Positions 11,780 to 14,088 of a stretch of 64,000 nucleotides of DNA are shown one piece after another. Each line of letters starts with the position of its first letter. Within the stretch, counting starts at the first letter, position 1. The stretch comes from Luteitalea sp. Lineage in GTDB: Bacteria; Acidobacteriota; Vicinamibacteria; Vicinamibacterales; Vicinamibacteraceae. The stretch is from the NCBI GenBank assembly GCA_009377605.1, contig WHTT01000003.1, positions 62,001 through 126,000 on the forward strand. The letters are read 5' to 3'. The notes under the pieces were generated by a model. It searched no databases and was not told where the DNA came from. It saw only the letters and a list, made by a program, of their open reading frames with translations. A program made the translations under genes and the position numbers.

Positions 11780-12445
11780 TCAGTGCGTCGCTGCTTCGCC
11801 CCACAACGCCTTCAATCGCCTGTCGCGGCCGCAACTGAACCGATAGTATTTGTAACGTAGGGGATTCGTCTGGTAGTAGTCCTGGTGATAGTCCTCTGCG
11901 CGATAGAACGCCCCTTGGTCGACGATCTCGGTCACGATCTTGCCTTGGAGACGGCCCGAGGATTGTAGCGCCGCCTTGGATTTCTCTGCCGCTGCCCGCT
12001 GCTCGGCATTGTGCACGAAGATCGCGGTACGGTACTCAGAGCCGCGATCGCAAAACTGTCCGCCATTGTCGAGGGGGTCGACATTGCGCCAGAAGACGTC
12101 GAGCAGCTGCTCGTAGCTGATCTTCGCCGGGTCGTAGACGATTTCCACGGCCTCCGCGTGCCCCGTTCCGCCTGCCGAGACATCCTCGTAGGTAGGGTTC
12201 CGGGTGCGGCCGCCGGTGTAGCCAGAAGTCGTCGACACGACGCCGTCGATCTCGTCGTAGGGCTGCTCCATGCACCAGAAGCACCCTCCGGCGAAGATCG
12301 CCTTCGCCAGCCCTTTCTCAGCGGGGGGCGCCTTGTCTGGCTGGCCGATCGCCGACCTCTCGACCATCGAAGGGCTCGAGGCGCCGGACGCCACAACCGA
12401 AGCGAGCAGGAGGACACCGGCAACTGACAGTAGCGCGCGTGCCAT
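11780..12445 (-). CDS. msrA: Exported peptide-methionine (S)-S-oxide reductase
   Basis: The 221-residue protein has an N-terminal signal segment (MARALLSVAGVLLLASVVASG) followed by an MsrA domain with the catalytic motif GGCFWCMEQPYDEIDGVV. The Cys of GCFWC is the nucleophile. GYTGGRTRNPTYEDVSAGGT and the FCDRGSEYRTAIF region are also diagnostic. It repairs the S form of methionine sulfoxide in periplasmic proteins. MsrB, for the R form, is coded divergently 228 bases away, also with an export signal, so the two form an exported repair pair instead of the fused MsrAB of some bacteria. The intergenic stretch holds a GGTGTCA/TGACACC inverted repeat of unknown role. Confidence 0.92.
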   Translation of the reverse strand: MARALLSVAGVLLLASVVASGASSPSMVERSAIGQPDKAPPAEKGLAKAIFAGGCFWCMEQPYDEIDGVVSTTSGYTGGRTRNPTYEDVSAGGTGHAEAVEIVYDPAKISYEQLLDVFWRNVDPLDNGGQFCDRGSEYRTAIFVHNAEQRAAAEKSKAALQSSGRLQGKIVTEIVDQGAFYRAEDYHQDYYQTNPLRYKYYRFSCGRDRRLKALWGEAATH

Positions 12446-12673: not shown

Positions 12674-13198
12674 ATGCGGCGCCGCCATTTCCTTACGGTA
12701 TCGGCTGGAACCCTGGGCGCCGCCCTCGCGGGCGGAGGCTGGTCCCGCTTGAGCGGCTCGTCCGGAGGCACGCAGGAGACGAAGGCCATGTTGACCAAGT
12801 CGAAGGCGGAGTGGCGAAAGCTCCTTCCCGAAGGCGCGTACCGGGTGCTGTTCGAGGAAGGGACCGAGCGCTCGTTCTCGAGCCCGCTGGACAACGAGAA
12901 GCGTGAAGGGACCTTCGTCTGTGCCGCCTGCTTTCTCCCCCTCTTCGAATCTGACACCAAGTTCGATAGTCGCACGGGTTGGCCCAGCTTCGTCAGGCCG
13001 ATAGACGGCAGCGTCGAGACCAAGAGCGACTACAAGCTGATCTTCAGACGTACCGAATATCACTGCACGCGCTGCGGTGGTCACCAGGGACACGTGTTCG
13101 ACGATGGCCCGCCGCCGACAGGACAGCGGTGGTGCAACAACGGCGTCGCGCTGAAATTCGTGCCGAAGGGAGAGCCGTTACCAGCACTGCGCAAGTAA
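12674..13198 (+). CDS. msrB: Exported peptide-methionine (R)-S-oxide reductase
   Basis: The 174-residue protein starts with a twin-arginine-like signal (RRRHFLTVSAGTLGAALAGG), followed by an MsrB domain from about residue 47. Two zinc-binding pairs are seen, CAAC and CTRC. The catalytic cysteine lies in RWCNNGVAL, where most members have RYCxN. FDSRTGWPSFVRPI is the classical substrate-side motif. The ATG at 12674 is preceded by GAGAGGTGAG. A long inverted-repeat element begins directly after the TAA stop codon. Confidence 0.92.
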   Translation: MRRRHFLTVSAGTLGAALAGGGWSRLSGSSGGTQETKAMLTKSKAEWRKLLPEGAYRVLFEEGTERSFSSPLDNEKREGTFVCAACFLPLFESDTKFDSRTGWPSFVRPIDGSVETKSDYKLIFRRTEYHCTRCGGHQGHVFDDGPPPTGQRWCNNGVALKFVPKGEPLPALRK

Positions 13199-13357
13199 GG
13201 ACCTGTCAGGGAATAAGTGCACCATTCTGGCTGCCGATGCATCCCGTCTGGCAGCGTTGCTCGTCGCTTACATACTCCCGGTATGCGTACTCCTCGCGCC
13301 TTGCCAGACGGGCGCCTCGACACCCAGAACGGCACACTTATTCCCTGACAGGCCCTA
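13199..13357. mobile_element. Candidate MITE or large REP element with about 55-base inverted ends
   Basis: The left arm (13199-13255, starting with CCTGTCAGGGAATAAGTG) is the imperfect inverse complement of the right arm (13301-13355, ending with CACTTATTCCCTGACAGG). The loop holds a smaller hairpin, CATAC-TCCCG-GTATG. No transposase gene is present. The element sits exactly behind the msrB stop codon. A non-autonomous element moved by a Y1/REP-type transposase elsewhere is the simplest reading. Confidence 0.75.
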
Positions 13358-13398
13358 AGCGGGGCGTTCGGTTCCACTGGCGAACAAGTGACGGGTGG

Positions 13399-14088
13399 TC
13401 ACGGCACCGTAGCGTGTGCCGCCACCGAATCTGCCTGGCGTTCCGCCGTTCGTTGCTGCAACCGGCTGGCTTTGACTTCTGCGCTCACGCGGCGTCCCAC
13501 GTCGAAGGCGCGGTCCGTTTCGTAGTTGTCTCGACCCACCCGCAGCACCCCACTTCCGCGGACTTCGGCCAAGTGGCGTAGCTCGAGCCCCTCCACCTGC
13601 TCCAGCACGTGTTCCAGCTCGTGAGCCACGACCTCGACCACGTTCCCAGGAAGGTAGAAGACGACGTTGGCGATCATCGCGCCAGCCTCGTACTTCCGAA
13701 TCTCCGCGCGAGCGGCGTATAGCCGATCGCCACGCAAGCCACCAGCGAGAAAACGAACGAAGACCGACGGCGTACGGGCCAGATTGTGGCACTGCGCGCG
13801 AAGGGTGGGCGAGCTGCGCAACGCCTCTTCGACGTGCGGCTGCAAGAATGGAGGCACCACGACATTGGGCGGCAACTGTGTCGTGCAGGAATCGGCGACT
13901 TCACGGGACACCGGCCGCAACGGTACCATGGGAGGTTCGCTCTTGCGGCGAACGGGCATCGCACAGTTGACAGCCAGTAACAGTGGAAGCAAAAGGAGAA
14001 CGGGGCGGCCGCGACGCGCATGCGACGTGCGGGTCGACCTTGCTGTCCATCTGCCAGAAGCACAGAGTGAAAAAGCACGATGAATCAT
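13399..14088 (-). CDS. Uncharacterised secreted protein with an HELEH zinc-protease-like motif
   Basis: The 229-residue protein has a long N-terminal region ending in a hydrophobic signal (VLLLLPLLLAVNCAMPV). The body holds ARTPSVFVRFLAGGLRG, then AGAMIANVVFYLPGNVVEVV directly before AHELEHVLEQVEG. HELEH is an HExxH motif of the zincin kind, with a further Glu nearby (EQVEG). The tail (DRAFDVGRRVSAEVKA) has no assigned role. The cysteine after AVN could be a lipid anchor, but the residue before it (Asn) does not fit the lipobox. I do not recognise a named family. It is convergent with msrB, separated by the MITE-like element. Confidence 0.6.
   Translation of the reverse strand: MIHRAFSLCASGRWTARSTRTSHARRGRPVLLLLPLLLAVNCAMPVRRKSEPPMVPLRPVSREVADSCTTQLPPNVVVPPFLQPHVEEALRSSPTLRAQCHNLARTPSVFVRFLAGGLRGDRLYAARAEIRKYEAGAMIANVVFYLPGNVVEVVAHELEHVLEQVEGLELRHLAEVRGSGVLRVGRDNYETDRAFDVGRRVSAEVKASRLQQRTAERQADSVAAHATVP

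Follow-up and report, generated by a model that had tools for sequence, protein, structure and literature searches.

The window, a stretch of 64,000 nucleotides from Luteitalea sp., contains msrB (positions 12674–13198, + strand; SelR domain, PF01641, E 2.1e-43), which adjoins msrA (11780–12445, − strand; PMSR domain) and is transcribed divergently from it. On the other side, a gene matching no Pfam family (13399–14088) reads toward msrB, and a 157-bp MITE at 13199–13355 lies between these two convergent genes with TAA on either side. The left TAA (13196–13198, + strand), one half of a 3-bp target duplication, is the stop codon of msrB itself, and it is repeated on the right at 13356–13358 (+ strand). 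The first-pass annotation had described a MITE-like mobile unit behind msrB at 13199–13357, with ends starting CCTGTCAGGG; the left limit was correct, the right limit ran past the true end at 13355 into the TAA duplication, and CCTGTCAGGG belongs to the element but lies 3 bases inside its true edge.

The MITE is an imperfect inverted repeat with arms of 43 nt, 84% complementary and 73 nt apart, in agreement with the long inverted repeat claimed earlier, and the small palindrome reported within its loop is the apical hairpin CATAC-TCCCG-GTATG (13271–13285, + strand), the stem of which covaries in two alignments of core copies (A2 and A3). The left terminal inverted repeat GGACCTGTCAGGGAATAAGTG (13199–13219, + strand; family form GGGCCTGTC...) and the right one, GGGCCTGTCAGGGAATAAGTG (13335–13355, − strand), located by an end search, enclose two variable inner arms (13220–13234 and 13321–13334, both + strand) that are partners in the RNA and DNA folds. 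Inside these lies a hairpin core (13235–13320, + strand), recognised by its conservation across genomes and by a match to 86 positions of covariance model R1 at 106.4 bits. The core holds a left CTC-X-TC motif (13260–13265, + strand; columns 27–32 of A2), in which X is the G at 13263, and a right TC-X′-TC motif (13291–13295, + strand; alignments A2 and A4), in which X′ is the C at 13293 that pairs with it. Folding 13190–13370 as RNA gave −94.7 kcal/mol (z −8.8), and folding 13199–13355 as DNA gave −48.6 kcal/mol (z −8.6) with near end-to-end pairing; none of 200 shuffles was as low in either case. With as many as 3 mismatches allowed, the window contains two occurrences of the 17-base end, one per strand, where 0.07 would be expected. 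No coding capacity was found, as had also been claimed: the ORFs that cross the MITE are overlapping frames of at least 80 aa, none of them confined to it. Its 157 bp also lie within the usual size of a MITE, below about 300 bp.

The element is not single-copy. In the draft genome that carries the window (G000, 382 contigs), the end type forms part of an element at 14 places, ten of them full length, nine at 97–100% identity and the one on contig C35 at 90%; the incomplete copies are truncated (C123) or interrupted by contig ends (C24, C32 and C52). Since the latter three contigs terminate within element copies, the repeat itself breaks the assembly and the copy number is a floor. Exact TAA or TTA duplications were present on both sides of 8 of the 10 full-length copies, the exceptions being C28 (TTA/TCA) and C35 (TAA/TTA). 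The end pattern matched 28 times in this genome, compared with 6 matches for a reversed control pattern, and 17-mer matches with 3 mismatches on C9, C83 and C86 were rejected as not element-like. A further lone end lies on C177 (3896–4134), where an exact 18-base element end stands by itself after CTAA. Beyond it, a reading frame that runs off the contig is represented by its C-terminal portion, which by eye resembles a PIN-domain (VapC-like) end; comparison of its 66-residue fragment with Pfam matched no family. Perhaps this end belongs to a larger, gene-carrying element with the same ends.

An empty orthologous site was found in a genome of the same genus (G001, contig C72), in which the msrB block (83% identity) is separated from the downstream block by 109 bp, compared with 286 bp in the window. 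The interval there is without the element; the sequence at the junction is diverged, and the stop codon reads TGA. The multiple copies, the duplications and the empty site bear out the first-pass annotation in its central claim, and it is practically certain that the feature is a MITE, ordinary in its ends and in its mode of insertion.

On target preferences, IS5 and IS701 were the suspected partners of such an element, and IS5 (PF01609, 9 matches in G000) was set aside once the ISAzo13 family (PF07592) showed matching ends. In G021, a genome of the same order, GGGCCTGTCAGGAAATAAGTG lies beside ISAzo13-family coding sequence and agrees with the window family in 20 of 21 bases, and in G048 GGGCCTGTCAGGAAACAACTG lies beside PF07592 coding sequence and agrees in 18 of 21; both ends follow TTA or TAA, and both elements are known as pieces at contig ends. 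The transposase partner looked for in the first-pass annotation was thus located in part, as matching ends beside ISAzo13-family coding, and no complete element with these ends was found. Matching ends together with an exact TTA/TAA duplication were identified at 5 of 16 ISAzo13 loci (L103, L104, L110, L111 and L121) by a script that scored a bonus for duplications, and the remaining loci of the 16 gave no clear exact case. These five loci share with the MITE the end form GG-n-AATAA as well as the exact duplication, and the MITE differs from such insertion sequences in having no gene. ISAzo13 was present in 14 of 30 core-positive compared with 4 of 30 core-negative genomes. In G000 the ISAzo13 gene is complete on C113 and interrupted by a contig end on C28; both of these PF07592 loci have other ends by eye, and no matching autonomous partner was found in this genome, in the draft of which a partner copy may have collapsed. 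Judged from these sequences, it is well supported, and highly probable, that an ISAzo13-type transposase mobilised the window copy.

The MITE most probably inserted at the TAA stop codon of msrB, where the 3-bp duplication rebuilt the stop and spared the gene. By a simple longest-frame gene caller, on which all gene-end, orientation and stop-codon counts rest, 39 of the 52 elements that have duplications showed an overlap of the duplication with a stop codon closing an open frame of 100 codons or more, compared with 104 of 314 YTAR sites sampled in the same loci. Among 87 copies, the nearest gene end was a 3′ end in 66, and the surrounding genes were convergent for 29, co-directional for 28 and 20, and divergent for 10. 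Little damage is done by insertions of this kind, since TAA, TTA or TAG is part of the target and the stop is restored by the duplication, and insertion at stop codons would explain how elements of this kind gather at gene ends without damage.

The widely conserved part of the element is its interior and not its ends, an observation that goes beyond the view taken in the first-pass annotation. A whole-element query matched 30 of 60 genomes of the order, and many of the weaker matches covered only approximately positions 37–121. Covariance model R1 (31 core copies) detected the core in 34 of 199 genomes of the phylum, seven of which carry at least 22 copies each, numbers that are floors since the scan scored at most 22 candidates per genome. 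Scanning named genome contigs with the core motif gave at least 118 stretches; among the 80 matches listed, 50 are from Acidobacteria and 30 from elsewhere by their titles (Pseudomonadota, Elusimicrobiota, Thermodesulfobacteriota, Nitrospinota, Myxococcota and Troglogloeales), nearly all titles being those of metagenome assemblies, with misbinning possible for the cross-phylum records. The core is also present in one Bacteroidota locus (L259), and its carriers include Polaromonas sp. A23, the title of which is not that of a MAG, and a 3.1-Mb gammaproteobacterial chromosome. Five loci from Elusimicrobia (L260, L194, L227, L188 and L174) hold larger palindromic elements in which two opposed cores, one of them divergent, lie inside ISAzo13-like ends. 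No published description of the core was found in the literature searched, which covered few subscription journals.

Alignment of 31 copies chosen by blastn similarity to the window element (A2) revealed that 94.0% of the cells are paired and that 14 pairs have changed on both sides. The covariation score of A2 was 0.272; shuffles gave 0.104 (0 of 500 as high), and sliding the partners gave no more than 0.078. A weaker indicator was the count of further pair types, 23 versus 18.7 in shuffles, a value that 5 of 500 shuffles attained. The covarying pairs alternate with T·C or C·T mismatches, at columns 28/66, 29/64, 31/62 and 32/61, each kept in 30–31 of the 31 rows. In alignment A4, composed of 30 phylum copies chosen by model R1, both TC-X-TC motifs are present in 20 of 30 copies, and X and X′ form a pair in all 20 (10 G–C, 8 C–G, 1 A–T and 1 T–A); in the other 10 at least one of the TC motifs is absent, which means that not every copy of the core has the motif. 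The same test on A2 found both motifs in 28 of 31 copies and the X–X′ pair in 27 of those 28. In the cross-phylum alignment A3, the innermost pair of the apical stem is Watson–Crick in 112 of 112 distinct rows and occurs in all four types; the scan of named contigs had fixed the TC letters, so that TC conservation there and in A3 is circular and only the N positions are evidential. These patterns make it likely that the core is selected as a structure, and the conserved mismatches between covarying pairs offer a precise target for mutation.

The ends behave differently from the core. An end finder that favoured duplications in its scoring recovered ends for 129 of 152 distinct core copies (23 were without), with a duplication of TTA/TAA in 32 (median length 157 bp), of TA in 56 (median 160 bp) and none in 41. 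They fall into three broad classes, namely T1, with GG..AATAA (ISAzo13-like), T2, with GCAGCCCGTGG.., and T3, with GTG... In G000 alone, the 13 further loci that were read comprise the C35 copy, two without the core by the script's motif, and ten other copies with six kinds of end by eye, belonging to T1 and T3. Over the 77 of 152 copies compared, median end identity between classes was 0.31–0.38 and median core identity was 0.79–0.81, with core identity of 0.79–0.83 within classes; the collecting motif inflates the absolute core identity and not the comparison.

A tree of 72 cores (72 of 152 rows, 83 columns, with 38 of 65 inner branches open and a bootstrap that had not settled) requires no fewer than 14 end-class changes, although 2 would have been sufficient, and its well-supported branches alone force 4 (T3), 3 (T1) and 2 (T2) changes. 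The end-class label is nevertheless clustered on this tree (14 changes versus a mean of 33.6 after shuffling, with none of 200 shuffles as low), indicating that exchange is recurrent, not free. Matching of both ends, for which 109 of the 152 copies were used, gave 10 copies that matched at one end only, and mixed ends were seen in L071 of G022 (T3 on the left, T2 on the right), in C35 of G000 (two different T1 arms) and, weakly, in L247. L071 (G022:C163) starts with GTGTCCC.., carries GCAGCCC.. on the right, and immediately follows an element of a third kind, at its right end. The best explanation of the whole, and one that we consider quite likely, is a MITE with a conserved structural core and repeatedly exchanged ends, in which the core would stay conserved while the ends are replaced, time and again, by those of other transposons of the IS630/ISAzo13 group.

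A simpler account treats these elements as ordinary MITEs, the interior of which is an ancestral remnant spread across phyla and the arms of which are kept complementary by fold-back (quasipalindrome) correction and not by selection. Long palindromes are prone to arm-to-arm copying, which could yield complementary changes without selection, and the near identity of nine of the ten full-length copies in G000 (97–100%) indicates that recent spread does occur. Such correction should, however, also erase the T·C mismatches, which at four positions persist in 30–31 of 31 rows beside covarying pairs, and core identity does not fall between end classes. We regard this account as rather unlikely, with a real minority chance of being right.

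Exchange between IS630- and ISAzo13-type ends would take place within one wide group, since the two kinds of transposase are remote relatives (hhalign probability 84.6, E 6.8e-6). Ends with at least 16 of 22 matching bases were obtained at 12 of 23 IS630 (PF13358) loci, one of which (L311) is in G000, and 11 of them begin with GTGT; the finder required TA flanks, so TA is assumed at these loci and is not evidence. These GTGT.. ends resemble those of class T3, and no partner was found for the ends of class T2. The window copy lacks the IS630-type features (TA duplication and GTGT.. ends), having TAA and GGACC.. instead, and those features are found in T3 copies of the same core, such as L344 in G000. 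Within IS630 loci, the core motif was not found except as neighbouring elements. At L326 (G000:C8), L325 and L330 (G241), core elements abut IS630 copies with one TA shared, as though every insertion created a new target site beside itself.

How ends might be exchanged is speculative. Recombination within the core could join it to a new end, and this end could then be copied from arm to arm by fold-back synthesis, in which case the mixed-end copies would be intermediates; fold-back copying of ends is a conjecture that we think has a low chance of being correct. As a tentative and somewhat better-placed possibility, the lasting unit may be the hairpin core, read by a putative protein that is widely shared, which would have acquired the ends of active IS630/ISAzo13-like transposons over phylum-scale time, its palindromic arms letting a gained end be copied across.

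Wobble pairs are rare in the core, with 3 G–T and 9 A–C among 372 cells of A2 and 8 G–T and 9 A–C among 1008 cells of A3, and neither reading direction is preferred by the flanking genes, which enter one strand in 49 and the other in 57 of 87 copies. Together, these two features favour a DNA structure over an RNA structure, and we assign selection of the fold to the DNA level with modest confidence. As folded DNA, either a cruciform or a single-stranded hairpin, the core would putatively be recognised by a widely distributed protein. That the core is instead an RNA element, a 3′ untranslated hairpin or small RNA carried by MITEs, would suit the strong RNA fold and the 66 of 87 copies nearest to a 3′ gene end, but G–T pairs are rare on both strands, no reading direction is preferred, and 10 loci contained no Rfam family at gathering score, the best Rfam match in the window (MIR949) reaching 38 bits where the gathering score is 100. 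We therefore consider an RNA element improbable. The MIR949 match itself (13200–13354, − strand, E 3.2e-5) was read as an effect of the palindrome.

It is very improbable that the element serves chiefly to terminate transcription in both directions, from msrB and from the gene that faces it: its position does separate convergent genes, and transcripts may end at a strong hairpin, but no terminator-like site with a T run was detected in 13100–13460, and copies occur in all four gene arrangements. No promoter site was found at the element.

Least credible of all is mobilisation as a REP/REPIN-like element, by a Y1 (RAYT) transposase that reads the hairpin, for although REPs are hairpins with conserved unpaired bases and the paired inverted cores of Elusimicrobia recall REP dimers, no Y1_Tnp match was found in 11 of 30 core-positive genomes (60 searched), including G022, with at least 22 copies, and G043 (3 contigs), and the length, target duplications and CTC-X-TC pattern are unlike the GTAG and CGTC REPs described in the accessible parts of PMC3733652. 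As far as the available text of PMC3733652 and PMC3116915 describes them, REP/REPIN elements with RAYT resemble the core in being hairpins with conserved unpaired bases, often behind genes and sometimes in inverted pairs, and differ from the element in their length of 20–40 bp, their GTAG or CGTC tag and the lack of TWA/TA duplications. CGTC-tagged REPs were rejected on the description in those parts of PMC3733652. A dif-like or attC-like site was set aside by eye.

MITEs of the IS630/Tc1-mariner type include Correia/NEMIS, RUP and ERIC. Like the present element, these are geneless palindromes of 100–200 bp with short AT-rich duplications, located near gene ends; they are known by their shared ends, whereas the present elements have their interior in common and vary at the ends. 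All three are named in the accessible portions of PMC3733652 and PMC4853749, and the Thiomargarita MITEs in the portion of PMC4853749 have other ends and duplications. Tn3-derived TIMEs, in what is accessible of PMC4133298, are likewise non-autonomous and reported to generate mosaic transposons, but they have Tn3-family ends and, by the title of that paper, do not combine one core with many kinds of end.

What is unusual in the element is a hairpin core that crosses phyla and the ends of which have been swapped many times. MITEs are usually viewed as parasites bound to one transposase through their ends, a picture that is reversed by a core which is conserved across phyla and the ends of which can be exchanged. 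From such a core one would predict a trans-acting factor recognising the hairpin, and the case would illustrate the way in which a geneless sequence can outlast the transposons that move it.

Searches of mobile replicons gave few matches. The exact core motif was not found in viral contigs, and neither the 159-bp element nor the gammaproteobacterial copy, used as queries against phages and plasmids, gave a match. The Thiobacillus copy, used in the same way, gave one weak match, to a Burkholderia stagnalis replicon (L359, NZ_CP156686.1). This is a complete replicon of an isolate, unannotated at the hairpin site, and it carries two core-like hairpins in opposite orientation, with R1 scores of 40.1 and 30.1 bits.
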